Positions 30,570-59,601 of a stretch of 64,000 bases of DNA are shown here, in pieces (the first letter of the stretch is position 1; every line of letters starts with the position of its first letter). The notes under the pieces were generated by a model. It was not told where the DNA came from and searched no databases. It worked only from the letters and a program-made list of their open reading frames with translations. Source of the DNA: Chryseolinea soli (GTDB taxonomy: Bacteria; Bacteroidota; Bacteroidia; Cytophagales; Cyclobacteriaceae); the NCBI RefSeq assembly GCF_003589925.1, contig NZ_CP032382.1, positions 620,001-684,000 of the forward strand, read 5' to 3'. The position numbers and the translations under genes were made by a program.

Positions 30570-31801
30570 GCCAGTAAAGTTCGGCAATAGTGCATGATCT
30601 TTTCCGTAGCGCCCAGGTTTTCTTCCACGTAGAGCCGCGTCACCTCACACGCCAGCAAAAAAGTCTCAGGCGAGTTCAGCATCTCGTATTTGGCTTTCAG
30701 GTCCGTATAGTCGCGTACTTCGAACGCACCACCGCGGTTGATCAGGTCCACGGCCTCCTGGTATTTCTCATAGTCTTTGTTCCCAAAGAAGATGGGCACA
30801 CCGTAGCAGGCGGCCTCCAGGATGTTGTGCAGTCCCTTGCCGTAGGCACCACCAATAAAGGCGAATTCTCCATAGCGATACAATCGCGAAAGCATGCCGA
30901 TGTTGTCGATGATGAGCACCTGATAGTCTTCCAACGGCTTACCGGCCGCTTGCGAAAAACGAACGGACTTCACCTGTAAGGAGCTTTCCATCGCCGCCAT
31001 AAAGGTTTCGGTGATCTCGTGCGGGGCGATGATGAACTTGATCCGGTTTTCATTGATGAGGGGTGTGAGCACTTCGAAATCTTCCGGCCAGCAACTTCCC
31101 ACCACGAAGGTTTTCTGATCGCTTTTGAACTGCCGGGCGACCGGAATTTCACCGCCTTGCTTCACGATGGCATAGACCCGGTCGAACCGCGTGTCGCCCG
31201 CCACCGCGCAGGCATCAATACCAATGGATTTCAGCAAGTGCAACGACGTTTCGTTTTGTACAAAGAAGTAAGAGAAGTTCTTTAAGATGCCGCGATAAAA
31301 TCCGCCGTAAGGCTTAAAGAACATTTGTTCTTCGCGAAAGATCGACGATACGGATAGCAGCGGAATCTGGTGTTGTTTCAACGCCTTGGCATAATGATGC
31401 CAGAATTCATACTTTACAAATACGGCCAGCGTTGGCTTTACGATGGAAATGAATCGCTCCGCGTTTGCGGCCGAATCCCAGGGCAGATAACCGATAAAGT
31501 CGGCCTGGTCATAATTCTTGCGCACCTCATAGCCCGATGGTGAAAAGAAGGTGAGCAATATTTTTGTTTGCGGATATTCTTTTTTTATCGACTCGATGAG
31601 AGGCCGGCCCTGCTCGAATTCGCCCAGCGATGCACAGTGCACCCAAACCACCTTGGCGTGGTTTTGACGAAAGTAGTCGCCGAGTTTGGTAAAGACGTCT
31701 TTTCTTCCGGTTACAAATGCCCGGGCTTTGTTATGAAAAAGGGCGGCTATGTTATAGCCGGCGCGCATCACTAAAAGGACGAGATTATACAGTATGATCA
31801 T
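30566..31801 (-). CDS. waaA: 3-deoxy-D-manno-octulosonic acid transferase
   Basis: The 411-residue inner-membrane enzyme (WaaA/KdtA, GT30) adds Kdo from CMP-Kdo to lipid A precursor at the cytoplasmic face. It has an N-terminal membrane anchor (MIILYNLVLLVMRAGYNIAA), the catalytic Glu in HCASLGEFEQGRPLIE, and the CMP-binding segment FIGGAYGKGLHNILEAACYGVPIFFG near the C-terminus. Length fits the family. It lies far from the Kdo synthesis cluster at 52078-57098, which makes its substrate, so the pathway is split over at least two loci here. Confidence 0.95.
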   Translation of the reverse strand: MIILYNLVLLVMRAGYNIAALFHNKARAFVTGRKDVFTKLGDYFRQNHAKVVWVHCASLGEFEQGRPLIESIKKEYPQTKILLTFFSPSGYEVRKNYDQADFIGYLPWDSAANAERFISIVKPTLAVFVKYEFWHHYAKALKQHQIPLLSVSSIFREEQMFFKPYGGFYRGILKNFSYFFVQNETSLHLLKSIGIDACAVAGDTRFDRVYAIVKQGGEIPVARQFKSDQKTFVVGSCWPEDFEVLTPLINENRIKFIIAPHEITETFMAAMESSLQVKSVRFSQAAGKPLEDYQVLIIDNIGMLSRLYRYGEFAFIGGAYGKGLHNILEAACYGVPIFFGNKDYEKYQEAVDLINRGGAFEVRDYTDLKAKYEMLNSPETFLLACEVTRLYVEENLGATEKIMHYCRTLLA

Positions 31802-52077: not shown

Positions 52078-53286
52078 ATGCCAGGAACTGAATTATTCGG
52101 TTACGAAGAGAAAAAAGAGATCAATGACGTGCTGGAAACCGGCATTTTGTTTCGCTACAATCACGAAAACCTCCGGAATAACATCTGGAAGGCGCGCGAT
52201 TTCGAGGCCGAAGTGAAAAAGATCACCGGCGCCAAGTTTGCCCACGCAGTGTCCAGCGGTTCCACGGCTGTGGCCTGCGCGCTGGCAGCAGCCGGCGTGG
52301 GTGCAGGCGACGAAGTGATCGTGCCGCCTTTTACCTTTATCGCTTCCGTGGAAGCCGTGCTTTTTTGCGGCGCTCTTCCCGTGTTTGCCGAAATCGATGA
52401 AACCCTCTGCCTGAGCGCGGAGGGCATTAGCAAGGCCATCACCCCAAAAACGAAAGCCGTCCTGCTCGTGCACATGTGCGGTGGCATGGCGCGGATGGAT
52501 GAGATCCTGAAAGTTTGCAAAGACCATAACCTCACCCTGGTGGAAGACGCCGGTCAGGCTTTTGCCGCATCCTACAAGGGAACCAGCGTGGGACTCTTTG
52601 GAAAGACCGGATGCTATTCGTTCGACTTCTTCAAGATCGCCACGGCCGGCGAAGGCGGTGTGCTGGTAACGAACGACGAGCAAGCGTATCATCACGCCGA
52701 GACGTATTCCGATCACGGCCACGACCACATCGGTTCGAATCGCGGCATGGAAAATCACCCCATCATCGGCTTCAATTTCCGCATCAGCGAATTGCACGCC
52801 GCCGTGGGAGCAGCCCAAACCCGCCGCGTGCCGTCGATCCGCGAGACCAATCGCAAGCACAAAAAATTCCTCACCGAAGCACTGCGCAAAACGCCCGGCA
52901 TCGGGTTCGCTACACTGGCCGATCCCGACGGCGATTCAGCAACCTTCCTCAACTTGTTGTTGCCCGACACGGAAACCGCCAAGCGTACCGTTGACGCCCT
53001 GAACGCCAACGGCATCGGTGGTTTCAACTACTGGTTCACCAACATGTACCACTTCATCAATCAGTGGGATCACTTGAAAGACCTCCGCGTCGCCGCCAAC
53101 CTTCCCATCAACGTGTTGGGTGCACCTCAAGATTACAAGAACCTGAAGTTGCCCGTATCTCAAAATGTAGTGGGCCGCCTCATCTCCTTCGGCATCCGCG
53201 TCACCTGGACGCCCGAACAATTGAGCGCCCTGGCCGATGGCATTTCAAAAAGTGTAACACAAGCTTTATCTACTGTGCATGCATAA
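52078..53286 (+). CDS. kdnA: 8-amino-Kdo transaminase-like protein KdnA
   Basis: The 402-residue protein is a DegT/DnrJ/EryC1/StrS aminotransferase. The PLP lysine is Lys186 in SFDFFKIATAGEGG, with the co-factor segments SSGSTAVACAL and VEDAGQAFAA. It lies directly before a KdnB-type oxidase and KdsA, which matches the Kdo8N genes of Shewanella oneidensis, where KdnA converts the 8-keto form of Kdo to 8-amino-Kdo. Its stop overlaps the kdnB start by 8 bases. It works in the cytoplasm with glutamate as likely amino donor. The identification rests on motifs and gene order. Confidence 0.85.
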   Translation: MPGTELFGYEEKKEINDVLETGILFRYNHENLRNNIWKARDFEAEVKKITGAKFAHAVSSGSTAVACALAAAGVGAGDEVIVPPFTFIASVEAVLFCGALPVFAEIDETLCLSAEGISKAITPKTKAVLLVHMCGGMARMDEILKVCKDHNLTLVEDAGQAFAASYKGTSVGLFGKTGCYSFDFFKIATAGEGGVLVTNDEQAYHHAETYSDHGHDHIGSNRGMENHPIIGFNFRISELHAAVGAAQTRRVPSIRETNRKHKKFLTEALRKTPGIGFATLADPDGDSATFLNLLLPDTETAKRTVDALNANGIGGFNYWFTNMYHFINQWDHLKDLRVAANLPINVLGAPQDYKNLKLPVSQNVVGRLISFGIRVTWTPEQLSALADGISKSVTQALSTVHA

Positions 53287-54358
53287 GAATTTCAAAGGAA
53301 TAGAAAAAACGGTTTTCGGCCGGGGTGCCTTTGCACAACTCGGCGACATTCTCAACGAACGACGCGGTGACAACGACAAATTCATGGTCTTCGTCGTGGA
53401 TCAATATTTTAAAGGCAAACCCCTGGCCTCCCAGATCCCGCAAAAACCTGGCGACGTCGTCATGTTCATCGATGTGGACAAACACGAACCCACCACGGAA
53501 CAGATAGACGCCATGCGCGATGAGGTGCTGGCGAAACATGGCTTGCCCGCGGGCATTGTAGGCATTGGCGGCGGAAGCATCATGGACATTGCCAAGGCAG
53601 CGTCGTTGATGTTTACCAACGAAGGTTCCTCCACCCTGTATCAAGGATTGAACCTGATCAAGAAACCCGGCATCTATCACGTGGGTGTTCCCACCATCTC
53701 CGGAACCGGCGCCGAAGTTTCGATGACGGCCGTATTGACCGGTCCCGTAAAAAAACTCGGTTTGAAATGCGAGTGGACCGTATTCAACCAGGTGGTGTTG
53801 GATCCCGATCTCATTGCCAGCGTGCCCCGCGATTGGTGGTTCTACACCGGCATGGATACCTACATCCATTGTGTTGAATCCGAGAATGGCATCTACAACA
53901 ATGTGTACAGCCACGCCTTCGCGGAACAGTCGATGAAACTTTGTGAAGACGTTTACCTGAACGAAGGCAGCGGGCAAACTCCCGAGAACGACGAGAAGCT
54001 GATGATCGCTTCGCTGATGGGTGGCCTGAGCCTTACTTACTCCGAAGTCGGCGTATGTCACGCACTTTCCTATGGACTTTCAAAGATCCTGGGAACGCGC
54101 CATTGCTACGCCAATTGTCTTGCCTTCAATCACCTCCACGATTATTATCCGCAAGGGGTTGCCGACTTCAAGAAAATGCTGAAGAAGCATAACATCACGT
54201 TGCCACAAGGGCTGGCGAAGGAGTGGTCGGACGAGACGATCACGAAAATGGCAGAAGTGTCATACAACCTTCCGCACATGTGGAATCACGCCATCGGGTT
54301 GGATTGGAAAGACAAGATCACCCTGGATACGATCAAAGAATTGTTCAAACGTTTATAA
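53279..54358 (+). CDS. kdnB: Kdo 8-oxidase-like protein KdnB
   Basis: A 359-residue iron-containing alcohol dehydrogenase. The nucleotide segment is VGIGGGSIMDIAKAASLMF, and the metal site fits VGMDTYIHCVES-like sequence (here GMDTYIHCVES) with a later EVGVCHALSYGLSKILGTRHCYANC. In S. oneidensis KdnB oxidises the C8 hydroxyl of Kdo to an aldehyde, which KdnA then aminates. Overlapping the kdnA stop by 8 bases and followed by kdsA, it fits this role well. Cytoplasmic, metal- and NAD(P)-dependent. Confidence 0.85.
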   Translation: MHKNFKGIEKTVFGRGAFAQLGDILNERRGDNDKFMVFVVDQYFKGKPLASQIPQKPGDVVMFIDVDKHEPTTEQIDAMRDEVLAKHGLPAGIVGIGGGSIMDIAKAASLMFTNEGSSTLYQGLNLIKKPGIYHVGVPTISGTGAEVSMTAVLTGPVKKLGLKCEWTVFNQVVLDPDLIASVPRDWWFYTGMDTYIHCVESENGIYNNVYSHAFAEQSMKLCEDVYLNEGSGQTPENDEKLMIASLMGGLSLTYSEVGVCHALSYGLSKILGTRHCYANCLAFNHLHDYYPQGVADFKKMLKKHNITLPQGLAKEWSDETITKMAEVSYNLPHMWNHAIGLDWKDKITLDTIKELFKRL

Positions 54359-54384: not shown

Positions 54385-55236
54385 ATGAGTAAGAAAATAG
54401 TTAAAGTAGGAAACATCGAGTGTGGCGCGGATGAGTTATTTCTCATCTCCGGCCCCTGCGTAATTGAAGACGAATCGATCATGATGAAAACTGCCGAGAA
54501 GCTGAAAGAAGTTTCCGAGCGGTTGAATATTAAGATTATCTACAAGTCGTCTTTTCAAAAAGACAACCGTAGCAGCGTGAAATATTATGATGGTCCCGGA
54601 CTGGACAAGGGCGTGAAGCTCCTGGCCAAGGTGCGGGAGCAATTCGGATTTCCCATCCTCACCGACATTCACTATCCAGACCAAGCCAAAGCTGCTGGTG
54701 ATGTAGTCGATGTATTGCAGATCCCTGCCTACCTGTGTATGCAAACTACCCTGATGGTAGCCGCAGCAAAGACGGGCAAAACCATCAACATCAAGCACGG
54801 CCAGTTCTTGTCGCCCGACAACATGAAGCACCCTGTGGGCAAGTGTTTGGAAGCCGGCAACGACAACATCATTTTGACCGAGCGCGGATACACTTTCGGT
54901 TACAACGATCTTATCGTTGATCCGCGCAGCTTCTATCATATGAACAAGATCGGTTACCCGGTGGTGTTCGACGTGACGCACTCCATCCGCAAGTATGGCA
55001 TTCCCAGTGCCGATGCAAAAGGTGGTGCGCGCGAGTTCCTGCCGGTGCTCTCCCGTGCCGGCGTGGCTTCGGGTGTTGACGGTGTCTTTATCGAAACGCA
55101 CCCCGAGCCGGAAAAGGCTTTGTGCGATGCCGCCAGCCAGCTGTGTGTTTACGACCTGGAAGAGTTCATGAAACCCATCCTGGAGATGCACGCCGTGGAA
55201 GTTAAATATCGCAGTCGCGAGGTTGTACTCGCTTAA
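54385..55236 (+). CDS. kdsA: 3-deoxy-8-phosphooctulonate synthase KdsA
   Basis: The 283-residue enzyme condenses arabinose 5-phosphate and phosphoenolpyruvate to Kdo 8-phosphate. The start region LFLISGPCVIEDESIMM holds Cys25 at the position that is Cys in the metal-dependent class and Asn in the E. coli-type class, so this is a class II, metal-requiring KdsA. The other expected metal ligands are at VTHSIRKYG, FIETHPEP and CDAASQL. Family segments KSSFQKDNRSS and LTDIHYPDQA are present. It works in the cytoplasm, 26 bases after kdnB and 34 before the fusion gene. Confidence 0.96.
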   Translation: MSKKIVKVGNIECGADELFLISGPCVIEDESIMMKTAEKLKEVSERLNIKIIYKSSFQKDNRSSVKYYDGPGLDKGVKLLAKVREQFGFPILTDIHYPDQAKAAGDVVDVLQIPAYLCMQTTLMVAAAKTGKTINIKHGQFLSPDNMKHPVGKCLEAGNDNIILTERGYTFGYNDLIVDPRSFYHMNKIGYPVVFDVTHSIRKYGIPSADAKGGAREFLPVLSRAGVASGVDGVFIETHPEPEKALCDAASQLCVYDLEEFMKPILEMHAVEVKYRSREVVLA

Positions 55237-55270: not shown

Positions 55271-56293
55271 ATGGAATTATACCTCGATTCAGCGGACATC
55301 GTAGAGATTGAAGAAGCGTTCAAGCTCGGCTTTCTCACCGGACTTACCACCACACCCACGTTCATGCACCGCGGTGGTGTGAAAGACGTCGATTCATTGA
55401 TCGTAAAGCTCTCCAAGATCGTTCCCGTGCTTCAGATCGAAGCCCTCGGCGACACCGCTGAAGAAGTTCTGGCCGAAGCAAAGCGCCAGCTCGACCTCGG
55501 CCTCGACCCCAAGAAAACGGTGTTCAAAATTCCCGTTTCATTGGAAGGGGTGCGCGCCTGCAACATGCTGCGCCGCGAAGGATTGCTGGTGAACGTTCAC
55601 CTGGTCTACACGCTGCAACAAGCCTACATGGCCATGCAAGCCGGAGCATCCTATGTTTGCCCGCTCGTGGGCCGTCTGCAAGATCAAGGTCACGATGCCT
55701 TGTCGCTGGTGGAACAATGCGTGTTTGCCGTAGACCACTATGGATATGACACGAAAGTGATGTTCTCGTCGGTGCGCACCGCCGAGCACGTGCGCAACGC
55801 CCTCAACCTGGGTGTGCACACCATCACAGCGCCCTGGAAGATCATGAAGGCACTCACCGAGAACAACTTCACCACGGTCGGAACAGAACAATTTGTGGAA
55901 CACACCCGTCTCATGACCGTGAAGGTGAAGAACGTGGTGGATACCGTGAACCCTACCGTGACCGACGACACCCCGCTGGTAGACGCCATCGTGAAGATGA
56001 CCGAATTCGGCTTTGGTGCAGTCACCGTCGTGAAGAAGGACGGCACGCTGGTGGGTGTATTCACCGACGGCGACCTCCGCAGAAAGATCCAGCAAGAAGG
56101 CCGTGACGTGTTGAAGAAGAACTTGAAGGACTTCGAATACGGCAAGCCCGTGTCCATCGAAGGCGATGCGTTGCTGAACGATGCCAACGCACTGTTCAAG
56201 AAATTCAACGTAGACACTTTATTGGTGACCGACAACGGTAAGCCCGTGGGCATGCTTGATATTCAAGATATGCGCGCAAACGCCGCCAAATAA
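55271..56293 (+). CDS. Transaldolase-like protein fused to KdsD-type CBS pair
   Basis: A 340-residue fusion. Residues 1-215 are of the transaldolase/fructose-6-phosphate aldolase (FSA) family: MELYLDSAD with Asp6, Schiff-base Lys86 in VFKIPVSLEGVRACNMLR, NVHLVYTLQQAYMAMQAGASYVCPLVGRLQDQG. The usual TTNPS motif is TTTPTF, so the normally conserved Asn28 is Thr. Residues 225-340 are two CBS domains; GVFTDGDLRRKI and GMLDIQDMRAN closely match the CBS pair of the arabinose-5-phosphate isomerase KdsD. The gene lies between kdsA and a kdsC-like gene, where KdsD would be expected. It may make or channel the sugar phosphate for KdsA (inference). A strong terminator follows. Confidence 0.85.
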   Translation: MELYLDSADIVEIEEAFKLGFLTGLTTTPTFMHRGGVKDVDSLIVKLSKIVPVLQIEALGDTAEEVLAEAKRQLDLGLDPKKTVFKIPVSLEGVRACNMLRREGLLVNVHLVYTLQQAYMAMQAGASYVCPLVGRLQDQGHDALSLVEQCVFAVDHYGYDTKVMFSSVRTAEHVRNALNLGVHTITAPWKIMKALTENNFTTVGTEQFVEHTRLMTVKVKNVVDTVNPTVTDDTPLVDAIVKMTEFGFGAVTVVKKDGTLVGVFTDGDLRRKIQQEGRDVLKKNLKDFEYGKPVSIEGDALLNDANALFKKFNVDTLLVTDNGKPVGMLDIQDMRANAAK

Positions 56294-56312: not shown

Positions 56313-56370
56313 GGGCCTGTATCAAATGAGCATCCCATGCTTTTCGATACAGGCCCTTTTTATTTTATTT
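56313..56370 (+). terminator. Intrinsic terminator after the fusion gene
   Basis: GGGCCTGTATC (56313-56323) pairs with GATACAGGCCC (56346-56356) around a 22-base loop, then a T-rich run TTTTTATTTTATTT. It lies 20 bases after the fusion-gene stop and 18 bases before the kdsC-like start, so the phosphatase is separated from the upstream genes by a terminator even though the pathway is shared. Confidence 0.9.
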
Positions 56371-56387
56371 GTTTGATCCAACCCATC

Positions 56388-57098
56388 ATGAAGAACATCG
56401 AAAAAATTTTCACCGCCCCCGGAGGCCAGTTTGTTACGCCGATCGAGACCCTGGCGGAGAAATTAAAACACATCAGGGCCTTTGTGTTCGATTGGGACGG
56501 CGTGTTCAACGACGGATCAAAAAATGAACACGGCAGCAGCACCTTCAGCGAAACCGACGCCATGGGCACCAACCTGTTGCGGCTGAGCAGTTGGATGGCC
56601 ACCGGCAAAATGCCTTACTGCGCCGTGCTGTCGGGGGAAGAGAACCGGATCTCGTTTCGGTATGGGGCACGCGAGCATTTTCACCGGGTCTACTACCAGG
56701 TGAAAGACAAGACCATCGCACTGAAACATTTTGAGGAAACCTTCGGGTTGAAGAACGAGAACATCCTGTTTGTGTTCGACGACGTGCTGGACCTGTCCTT
56801 GGCCCGCATCTGCGGGGTGCGGATGCTCATCAGCCGCAAGGCCAACCCCATGTTCCGGAACTATGTGGTGGAAAATAATCTGGCCGACTACGCTACAGCG
56901 CACGACGGCTCCCAATTTGGGGTACGCGAAGTATGCGAGCTGTTCATGGCCCTGACGGGGAACTACAATGAGGCACTGGAGAACCGCATTACCTTTTCGC
57001 CGGAGTACACCGACTACTTCAAAGCGCGCCAGGAAATCCCCACGTCGTTCTATTCGGTGGTGAACAACGAGATCGTTCTCCGGGAAATCACGGTGTAG
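56388..57098 (+). CDS. kdsC: KdsC-like HAD phosphatase
   Basis: About 236 residues from the start MKNIEKIFTAPGG at 56388 (a frame going back to 56256 overlaps the fusion gene and terminator and is unlikely). It is a haloacid-dehalogenase-type phosphatase: FDWDGVFNDG with the nucleophile and acid Asp, the Thr/Ser and Lys at the later motifs LSGEEN and KDKTIAL, and the acidic FVFDDVLDLSLARICGV. KdsC removes the phosphate of Kdo 8-phosphate, and the place fits this. But the motif I reads DWDGVFNDG instead of DVDGVLTDG and the protein is about 50 residues longer than usual KdsC. Activity is therefore a good guess, not shown. Confidence 0.75.
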   Translation: MKNIEKIFTAPGGQFVTPIETLAEKLKHIRAFVFDWDGVFNDGSKNEHGSSTFSETDAMGTNLLRLSSWMATGKMPYCAVLSGEENRISFRYGAREHFHRVYYQVKDKTIALKHFEETFGLKNENILFVFDDVLDLSLARICGVRMLISRKANPMFRNYVVENNLADYATAHDGSQFGVREVCELFMALTGNYNEALENRITFSPEYTDYFKARQEIPTSFYSVVNNEIVLREITV

Positions 57099-57329: not shown

Positions 57330-59009
57330 ATGAGTGAGAATGTTTATGATGCCATTGTTGTCGGCTCGGGAATTAGCGGAGGCTGGGCAGCAAAGGAGCT
57401 TTGTGAAAAAGGGTTGAAGGTAATCATGCTGGAACGTGGCCAGAATATAGAACACGTGAAGGACTACACCCAGACCAACAAGGCACCGTGGGAATTTCCG
57501 CATCGCGGCAAAGCACCGTTGAAACTGGTTGAGGAATACCCGGTGCTAAAGCGTGATTATCCGCTGAACGAAATCAATACCGACTGGTGGGCCAGCGACA
57601 AGGATTGTCCCTATACGGAAGTGAAGCGTTTCGACTGGTTCCGCGGTTATCACGTGGGCGGCCGTTCCCTGATGTGGGGCAAGCAAAGCTACCGCCTCAG
57701 TGACCTCGATTTCGAAGCCAACGCCAAAGAAGGCATCGCCGTAGATTGGCCGGTTCGCTACAAAGAACTTGCGCCGTGGTACGACTACGTAGAAAAATTT
57801 GCCGGCATCAGCGGCAACAAAGACGGCATCGAACACCTCCCCGACGGACAGTTCCTCCCGCCGATGGACATGACCGTCGTAGAAAAGGACGTCGCCGCCC
57901 GCATCAAAGAACATTATAAAGGCAAACGCCACATGATCATCGGCCGCGCCGCTCACGTGACAGGCCCGCTCGCCGGCCGTACACAGTGCCAATACCGCAA
58001 CAAGTGTGGTTTGGGCTGCCCGTTTGGTGGATACTTCAGCACACAGTCATCCACTTTGCCCGCCGCCGTGAAGACGGGCAACCTGACCCTGCGTCCGTGG
58101 AGCATCGTGACCAAAGTGCTCTATGATAAAGACAAGAAGAAAGCTACGGGTGTAGAAGTATTGGATGCACAGACTAACCAAACCTACGAATACAAAGCCA
58201 AGATCATTTTCCTGAACGCCTCCACCCTGAACACCTCGTGGATCCTCATGAACTCGGCTACCGACATCTGGCCCGAGGGCTTGGGTAGCAGCAGCGGCGA
58301 GCTGGGCCACAACCTGATGGACCACCACCTGGGGGTTTATTCCTACGGACATGTGGACGGCTATGAAGACAAATATGTTTATGGCAATCGCCCCAATGGT
58401 ATTTACATCCCCCGCTACCGCAACATGTTCGGCGAGAAACGCGACTACATCCGTGGCTTCGGCTACCAGGGTGGTGCCAGCCGCGAAGGATGGGGCCGCA
58501 TCGTGCCTGAGTACAGTATCGGTGTAGAATACAAGGAAGCCCTGAGTGAACCCGGACCCTGGACGATGGGCATCGGCGGCTTCGGCGAGATCCTCCCCTA
58601 CCACGACAACAAAGCCACGCTCGACAAGACCAAGAAAGACAAATGGGGTCTCAACGTACTGGCTATTGACTGTGAACTTAAGGAGAATGAGAACAAAATG
58701 CGCCAGGATATGTTGAACGACGGCGTCGAAATGCTGGAAGCCGCGGGCGTAAAGAACGTGAAAGGTCACATCGGCGACGGCACACCCGGCCGCGGTATCC
58801 ACGAAATGGGAACAGCCCGCATGGGTAAAGATCCTAAAACGTCGGTGCTGAATAAGTTCAACCAGGTTTGGGATGCTCAGAACGTGTTCATCACGGATGG
58901 ATCGTTTATGACCTCGGCTGCCTGTCAGAACCCGTCGCTTACGTATATGGCCTTTACGGCACGCGCCGCAGAGCACGCCGTGAGCGAATTAAAGAAAATG
59001 AACATCTAA
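57330..59009 (+). CDS. GMC-family FAD oxidoreductase
   Basis: A 559-residue flavin enzyme. The N-terminal Rossmann motif is AIVVGSGISGGWAAKELCEKGLKVIMLERG. The Cys-rich segment CQYRNKCGLGCPFGG is found in the gluconate/sorbitol/fructose dehydrogenase group, and the C-terminal part has HEMGTARMGKDP and ITDGSFMTSAACQNPSLTYMAFTARAAEHA with the Asn near the active site. It has no signal peptide of its own; the small subunit encoded 13 bases downstream has a Tat-type signal and may take it through the membrane. Likely oxidises a sugar or sugar acid in the periplasm; no cytochrome c gene is present here. Confidence 0.9.
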   Translation: MSENVYDAIVVGSGISGGWAAKELCEKGLKVIMLERGQNIEHVKDYTQTNKAPWEFPHRGKAPLKLVEEYPVLKRDYPLNEINTDWWASDKDCPYTEVKRFDWFRGYHVGGRSLMWGKQSYRLSDLDFEANAKEGIAVDWPVRYKELAPWYDYVEKFAGISGNKDGIEHLPDGQFLPPMDMTVVEKDVAARIKEHYKGKRHMIIGRAAHVTGPLAGRTQCQYRNKCGLGCPFGGYFSTQSSTLPAAVKTGNLTLRPWSIVTKVLYDKDKKKATGVEVLDAQTNQTYEYKAKIIFLNASTLNTSWILMNSATDIWPEGLGSSSGELGHNLMDHHLGVYSYGHVDGYEDKYVYGNRPNGIYIPRYRNMFGEKRDYIRGFGYQGGASREGWGRIVPEYSIGVEYKEALSEPGPWTMGIGGFGEILPYHDNKATLDKTKKDKWGLNVLAIDCELKENENKMRQDMLNDGVEMLEAAGVKNVKGHIGDGTPGRGIHEMGTARMGKDPKTSVLNKFNQVWDAQNVFITDGSFMTSAACQNPSLTYMAFTARAAEHAVSELKKMNI

Positions 59010-59022
59010 TTTGTAAAGCATT

Positions 59023-59601
59023 ATGAATAGAAGAGATGCTATAGCACGCGTAGGCCTGATCCTGGGGGGAACCGTTGTTGGCTCCCAGGCTTTCCTGAGC
59101 GGATGCGCAAAAAAATCGGAAGTGGCCGCAACGGGTAACACCTTCACGCCGGAGACCATTTCCTTCCTCGACGAAGTAGGCGAAACCATTCTCCCCACGT
59201 CCGCGGCTTCGCCCGGCGCAAAAGAATCCAAGATCGGCGAGTTCATGAAGACCATCGTTTCCGACTGCTATGAAGAAAAAGATCAAAAGATCTTCATGGA
59301 CGGCATCGGCAAACTGAACGAAGCTTCGAACAAAAAATTCTCCAAGGATTTCATGTCACTCTCCGCCACAGAAAAACACGATCTGTTGGTAGAGGTCGAC
59401 AAGGACGCTAAGGATTACCATGACGCCAAAAAAGAAGAAGATCCCCAGCATTATTTCACGCTGATGAAACAGCTCACGTTGTGGGGCTACTTCACGTCGG
59501 AAGTTGGATCGACCAAGGCTTTGCGCTTTTTACCCGTGCCCGGAAGATACGATGGCGCCTATCCTTACAAGAAAGGCGATAGGGCCTGGGCAGCGACCTG
59601 A
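59023..59601 (+). CDS. Gluconate 2-dehydrogenase subunit 3-family protein
   Basis: 192 residues. The N-terminus MNRRDAIARVGLILGGTVVGSQAFLSGC combines a Tat-like twin arginine with a lipobox (FLSGC, Cys28), so it is exported folded and probably anchored. The rest is the helical GDH subunit 3 fold (FTPETISFLDEVGETILPTSAASPGAKESKIG...). It would act as a chaperone or membrane link for the GMC subunit that precedes it in the same operon. The third, cytochrome subunit of the classical complex is not encoded next to it. Confidence 0.92.
   Translation: MNRRDAIARVGLILGGTVVGSQAFLSGCAKKSEVAATGNTFTPETISFLDEVGETILPTSAASPGAKESKIGEFMKTIVSDCYEEKDQKIFMDGIGKLNEASNKKFSKDFMSLSATEKHDLLVEVDKDAKDYHDAKKEEDPQHYFTLMKQLTLWGYFTSEVGSTKALRFLPVPGRYDGAYPYKKGDRAWAAT

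Follow-up and report, generated by a model that had tools for sequence, protein, structure and literature searches.

A transaldolase–CBS fusion protein as a candidate supplier of aldose phosphate to a variant KdsA in Bacteroidota

Most Gram-negative lipopolysaccharides have 3-deoxy-D-manno-octulosonate (Kdo) as a core component, and textbooks present the isomerisation of ribulose 5-phosphate as the first committed step towards this sugar. Here, a 64,000-nucleotide stretch of the Chryseolinea soli genome (NZ_CP032382.1, positions 620,001 to 684,000; hereafter the window, to which positions refer unless marked C1) was analysed around a gene at 55271..56293 on the plus strand. This gene encodes a two-domain protein, Tal-CBS, which is a proposed supplier of an aldose phosphate, D-arabinose 5-phosphate (A5P), to the Kdo pathway.

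Results

The Tal-CBS gene starts with ATG, stays open throughout and encodes 340 amino acids. Residues 3–213 (55277..55909, plus strand) form a TAL/FSA Schiff-base aldolase domain (Pfam TAL_FSA, PF00923), with a score of 115.5 bits against a cut-off of 27, and residues 220–335 (55928..56275, plus strand) form a CBS pair of the KdsD/KpsF type, with two Pfam CBS stretches scoring 60.6 bits against a cut-off of 24 and the motifs GVFTDGDLRR and GMLDIQDMRA. The original prediction of an aldolase domain joined to CBS domains of the KdsD type was borne out by both Pfam matches and both motifs. The TIGR00393 profile matched Tal-CBS only from profile position 152 onward, which is the CBS part (64.7 bits), and the best solved-structure match of the CBS pair was 4o9k, the CBS pair of arabinose 5-phosphate isomerase, while no Pfam match to a SIS domain was obtained in the protein. 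Tal-CBS resembles KdsD/KpsF (TIGR00393), described as a SIS domain with two CBS domains (PMC10448790), in the type of its CBS pair and in its apparent place in the pathway as the source of KdsA's acceptor, but a Schiff-base aldolase domain with a TIM barrel takes the place of the catalytic SIS domain.

The structure predicted from a 40-row alignment (mean predicted local distance difference test score, pLDDT, 90.6; predicted template modelling score, pTM, 0.69) confirmed the aldolase fold, with the structure comparison taking in about residues 1–219, that is, the model without its CBS half. Fold and catalytic lysine are shared with FsaA/TalC (TIGR00875) and with the short transaldolases 3s0c and 3r8r, to which the domain is 31–32% identical. 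In contrast to these enzymes, Tal-CBS adds a C-terminal CBS pair, and its score with the fructose-6-phosphate aldolase equivalog TIGR00875 (154.6 bits) lies under the cut-off of 245.95. A protein search with Tal-CBS gave 4,003 matches among 8,000 scored candidates, and nearly all of the best 120 listed were two-domain proteins of full length; the database names of relatives among the matches listed were transaldolase, TalC/MipB aldolase and CBS domain protein. Full-length relatives were present in 42 of 217 Bacteroidia genomes, and the same five genes that make up the cluster described below occur in Chryseolinea serpens DSM 24574 with protein identities of 98–100%, so the fusion is no assembly accident.

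Tal-CBS is the fourth of five co-directional genes on the plus strand, kdnA-kdnB-kdsA'-talCBS-kdsC', which overlap by 8 bases or are separated by gaps of at most 34 bases. The kdnA-like gene (52078..53286) encodes a DegT-type pyridoxal phosphate-dependent aminotransferase (Pfam DegT, 266.8 bits) whose closest solved relative is the 8-amino-3,8-dideoxy-octulosonate transaminase 5k8b (463 bits; next chain 165). The kdnB-like gene (53279..54358) encodes a protein of the iron-alcohol-dehydrogenase family (Fe-ADH, 87.9 bits) whose closest solved relative is the Kdo 8-oxidase 5k8c (434.7 bits; 3rf7, 430.9; next 94.2), and for both genes other families score far lower than KdnA and KdnB. The kdsA' gene (54385..55236), which encodes a member of the Kdo-8-phosphate synthase family with variant acceptor loops (TIGR01362, 335.8 bits against a cut-off of 314), ends 34 bases upstream of Tal-CBS. 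Downstream lies kdsC' (56328..57098), a divergent KdsC-type HAD phosphatase gene that adjoins Tal-CBS in relatives and scores below the KdsC cut-offs (NF007019, 46.5 bits against 208; TIGR01670, 33.3 against 106.95); its start is a choice between ATG 56328, which is 34 bases after Tal-CBS, and a possible upstream TTG at 56256. The predicted position between kdsA and a kdsC-like gene was thus correct, although that description of the gene context had overlooked the KdnA- and KdnB-like genes upstream.

In Shewanella, KdnA and KdnB make 8-amino-Kdo (Kdo8N) by a two-step route, and judged by its gene content the cluster looks like a Kdo8N operon. Both KdnB, a reported Kdo 8-oxidase, and 8-amino-Kdo are documented for Shewanella (PMC5125639), and Kdo8N has been termed a hallmark of that genus (PMC6357163). 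The Shewanella kdnA/kdnB pair provides by far the best matches of the two upstream genes, but here, in a member of the Bacteroidota, the pair shares an operon with kdsA', talCBS and kdsC'. The cluster is followed at 57330-59601 by genes for a GMC oxidoreductase and a protein like gluconate 2-dehydrogenase subunit 3, as it is in C. serpens.

The other Kdo-pathway genes of the C. soli genome were also located. A search for a normal SIS-CBS KdsD found one at C1:1472081-1472884 (323.9 bits), and the idea that this genome lacks KdsD was accordingly rejected. The original prediction had held that a SIS-domain KdsD elsewhere in the genome, together with ordinary transaldolase activity of Tal-CBS, would speak against substitution; the first of these two was found. 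A second, classical KdsA with the motif KANRT lies at C1:5172555 and outscores KdsA' (388.7 bits). Because an ordinary KdsD and a classical KdsA are also present, the Tal-CBS cluster would constitute a second octulosonate pathway in this genome. In addition, there is one KdsB match, and the only WaaA-type Kdo transferase match lies at C1:651178-651693 (about 31178-31693 of the window, minus strand), about 20 kb before the cluster.

The distribution of Tal-CBS was then compared with that of KdsD and KdsA across the 217 Bacteroidia genomes. KdsD-type proteins were called with TIGR00393 at E values up to 1e-35 and KdsA at E values up to 1e-45; Tal-CBS was counted as active in 37 genomes (identity of at least 56%), the remaining five of the 42 belonging to family f4 at about 40% identity. 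KdsD-type matches occurred in 125 genomes, eight of them SIS-only, and KdsA in 158. Among these 158, KdsD-type matches without active Tal-CBS were found in 120 (seven SIS-only) and active Tal-CBS without KdsD in 35; one, C. soli itself, had both, and two had neither, namely G013, with a KdsA fragment, and G174, which is 80% complete. In genomes without KdsD, KdsA was present in 35/36 having active Tal-CBS versus 2/56 lacking it. A member of the same family as C. soli that is rated 100% complete (G158) carries Tal-CBS and its KdsA with no KdsD-type match. Active Tal-CBS occurs in 12 families, four of which (f1, f12, f6 and f39) also have KdsD-bearing members, and this mixture within families suggests that the two genes may have been exchanged repeatedly.

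The rest of the Kdo pathway was generally retained in the 37 genomes with active Tal-CBS (KdsB in 36, WaaA in 32), and KdsA lay within about 1 kb of Tal-CBS in 23 of them. Among 80 named loci, KdsA' was found within 5 kb in 52 and KdsC' in 61; as many of these loci end at contig ends, the corresponding numbers for the 53 uncut loci are 34 and 43. Open reading frame calling overlooked the module at one locus (L059, genome G154), where genome searches found it. KdnA was matched at E 1e-70 in just 24 of the 37 genomes, leaving 13 without, which is a further difference from the Shewanella system; a role of Tal-CBS in Kdo8N synthesis only was rejected as a general rule, and Tal-CBS is tied to KdsA rather than to KdnA. 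In a phylum-level draw of 296 genomes, only five Tal-CBS matches were found at E 1e-60, including those of C. soli and G158, so the prevalence of Tal-CBS depends strongly on the draw. In the three further genomes of that draw (G381, G289 and G480), KdsA' was near Tal-CBS in two, and G381 had no other module gene within 16 kb. A separate case is G211 (locus L050), a genome rated 100% complete and of a genus shared with six Tal-CBS genomes, which has KdnA and KdsB matches and neither a KdsA nor a Tal-CBS match.

The active-site counts take in all active sequences except those of G079 and G113, 35 of 37 in total. Asp6, Glu57, Lys86, Asn108, Arg135, Ser167 and Arg169 were invariant in 35/35. Lys86, the Schiff-base lysine (codon 55526..55528, plus strand), matches the numbering of the Thermoplasma acidophilum transaldolase (Lys86Ala entry 3s1w). 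Four donor-side changes were likewise fixed in 35/35: Thr28 (codon 55352..55354, plus strand), His110, Cys130 and Leu132 stand where the 220-residue stand-alone transaldolase of C. soli has Asn, Thr, Ser and Phe, so that the residues of a transaldolase proper (Asn28, Thr110 and Ser130) are replaced throughout. The presence of Lys86 and the replacement of the usual Asn28 by Thr had both been predicted correctly. From their spacing to the lysine and TalB numbering, positions 28, 110 and 130 presumably correspond to Asn35, Thr156 and Ser176 of TalB. In TalB, Asn35 and Ser176 hold the C1 hydroxyl of the donor, and since both C1-hydroxyl residues are replaced in Tal-CBS, a donor without this hydroxyl, such as glycolaldehyde, fits. 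TalB structures with mutations at the three positions are available as entries 1i2n, 1i2q and 1i2r.

The f4 proteins (loci L045-L049) showed a different pattern. Lys86, Arg135 and Arg169 were lost in 5/5, the CBS motifs FTDGD and DxQD were kept in 5/5, and no KdsA match was found in the f4 genomes. Their neighbouring genes appear peptidase- or phosphatase-like, as read from the sequences with no scan, and the f4 proteins were rejected as orthologues of the same role. Thus, catalytic decay of Tal-CBS coincides with the loss of KdsA, but the five f4 cases may all go back to one event. A decayed aldolase domain beside genes unlike those of the Kdo pathway may possibly be an orphan sensor.

The partner enzyme KdsA' also departs from classical KdsA. 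In the window, its KANR(S/T) acceptor motif (KANRSS) reads KDNRSS, the Arg of CRQT is replaced by Met and the second Lys of VKKGQF by His, and it has a RKYGIPSAD loop. The type defined by KDNRS, Met and a RKYGIPSAD-like loop was found in 17/17 Tal-CBS-linked rows, where the residue after the first Lys of VKKGQF is His and once Arg, and, with small variants, in 9/9 unlinked loci. KDNRS was present in 51/51 long KdsA matches of the named loci, and KANR in 9/9 KdsD-bearing genomes. In two Tal-CBS genomes, G156 and G117, KdsA' is accompanied by a classical KdsA, and KdsD is absent.

A KdsB tree of 43 rows (16 from Tal-CBS genomes, 26 from KdsD genomes and one from a genome with both) required six label changes in the best tree, of which the starred branches force two, with the bootstrap unsettled; with the same bootstrap limit, the labels were more clustered than in 500/500 shuffles. 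One clade of eight rows came from Tal-CBS genomes only, and all eight genomes carry KdnA.

Discussion

These results indicate that Tal-CBS probably supplies an aldose phosphate, with D-arabinose 5-phosphate as the best candidate, to a co-inherited KdsA variant, and so acts in the role of KdsD. That Tal-CBS would feed KdsA' is strongly supported, and its product is likely A5P. This product is favoured because G156 and G117 have a classical KdsA without KdsD, unless gaps or contamination mislead. The predicted substitution for KdsD was supported across the relatives by the near-exclusive alternation among KdsA genomes and by a catalytic site that is intact alongside KdsA and decayed in f4, the single family with Tal-CBS but no KdsA; it was not supported in C. 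soli, where KdsD is present as well.

Because Tal-CBS has the fold of a Schiff-base aldolase, we judge that its reaction must be carbon–carbon bond chemistry rather than isomerisation. In the proposed mechanism, which takes up the original suggestion of a glycolaldehyde route to A5P, Lys86 would capture a small aldehyde, most simply glycolaldehyde, as a Schiff base; the resulting enamine would attack glyceraldehyde 3-phosphate, which Arg135, Ser167 and Arg169 would position, to give A5P. The KdsD-type CBS pair might sense an end product such as cytidine monophosphate–Kdo (CMP-Kdo); regulation by a Kdo precursor through this pair, as originally suggested, is also plausible. In C. soli, kdnA-kdnB-kdsA'-talCBS-kdsC' would then encode an additional octulosonate pathway reserved for Kdo8N, with the ordinary KdsD–KdsA route running alongside. 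Precedents exist for the chemistry. Escherichia coli FsaA is reported to convert glycolaldehyde and glyceraldehyde 3-phosphate to A5P (PMC9947464), and entry 3upb is a crystal structure of a transaldolase with A5P attached covalently. The aldolase step of the synthetic A5P-dependent glycolaldehyde assimilation built from E. coli FsaA and KdsD is the same as that proposed for Tal-CBS, but it was engineered there (PMC9947464), whereas the Tal-CBS reaction would be natural and regulated.

In its full form, the proposal is more tentative, and we place it somewhat below even confidence: Tal-CBS might be a naturally occurring A5P synthase under feedback control, condensing glyceraldehyde 3-phosphate with glycolaldehyde or a different two-carbon donor and providing a complete non-isomerase entry to Kdo and Kdo8N that replaces KdsD in 35 of the 158 KdsA-bearing Bacteroidia, with its own type of KdsA. 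No transaldolase-CBS protein or aldolase route to Kdo was found in the open-licence literature, among the matches listed. If correct, the proposal would mean a second solution to a textbook step of outer-membrane synthesis in several Bacteroidota families; pathway databases, gap-filling models and inhibitor studies would be wrong for these families wherever they take KdsD for granted. It would also mean that one regulatory domain serves two unrelated enzymes that act at a single point in metabolism, and glycolaldehyde-assimilation pathways, which at present rely on FsaA for this reaction, would gain a regulated natural enzyme.

Several observations weigh against this interpretation. The C. soli genome holds KdsD besides Tal-CBS, which weakens the replacement idea for this genome, though not across its relatives. 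Fisher's test of the alternation gave 1.6e-31 within the KdsA genomes and also 7.8e-22, but the genomes are related and these values overstate independence; moreover, many of the sampled genomes resemble metagenome-assembled genomes, in which gaps can mimic absence, and one genome with active Tal-CBS (G153, 67% complete) gave no KdsA match. In another 54 of the 217 genomes, none of KdsA, KdsD and active Tal-CBS was matched (for example G051, G088, G211, G002 and G172; loci L165-L169). Because KdsB (11 of the 12 examined) and WaaA (9/9) occur among these 54, another supply route exists, and arguments from absence are not airtight; no KdsA substitute beside kdsB was recognised by eye in 11 loci of KdsA-less genomes, where no family scan was run. 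The donor is the weak step of the mechanism: no abundant source of glycolaldehyde was identified, and the affinity of FsaA for glycolaldehyde has been judged insufficient in vivo (PMC9947464). Furthermore, the fixed substitutions in the acceptor loops of KdsA' could mean another acceptor, and the KdsB tree fits either the same sugar or a different one.

The last two points bear on the alternative that survives best, which we nevertheless regard as unlikely, namely that Tal-CBS makes a different aldose phosphate from which KdsA' builds an octulosonate or another ulosonate that is not Kdo. It is retained because the loop changes separate KdsA' so consistently from the KANR enzymes of KdsD-bearing genomes, and loops L2 and L7 are reported to govern access to the KdsA active site, with L7 important in A5P binding (PMC6650799). 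The KdsB clade confined to Tal-CBS genomes points in the same direction, but it may instead reflect Kdo8N, given that KdnA is present in all its genomes. On the other hand, Tal-CBS genomes carry KdsB and WaaA of the ordinary families, the operon contains relatives of KdnA and of the Kdo 8-oxidase KdnB, and G156 and G117 have no KdsD for their classical KdsA, all of which argue against this alternative.

A rather less probable alternative keeps A5P as the product and changes the donor. Tal-CBS would here be a three-carbon transaldolase that frees A5P from octulose 8-phosphate, a transketolase product of fructose 6-phosphate and glucose 6-phosphate; stereochemical reasoning suggests that a split between C3 and C4 would yield dihydroxyacetone and A5P, and such a route dispenses with glycolaldehyde (PMC5854111). 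The donor side of the active site argues against it. With Thr28 and Cys130 in 35/35 at the positions that presumably correspond to the C1-hydroxyl residues of TalB (Asn35 and Ser176), a smaller donor fits better.

Finally, a purely regulatory Tal-CBS, binding A5P or a nucleotide sugar but synthesising nothing, is very improbable: the covalent A5P–transaldolase complex (3upb) speaks for it, and the CBS motifs kept by the f4 proteins despite their decayed aldolase sites indicate that a sensor role can stand alone, but the catalytic residues of active Tal-CBS are invariant, and 35 KdsA-bearing genomes would be left with no known source of A5P.

One further Tal-CBS protein, with 76% identity, is encoded at L131:5001-6008, in a record labelled Candidatus Saccharibacteria, a lineage outside Bacteroidota; the record is possibly a mis-binned contig.
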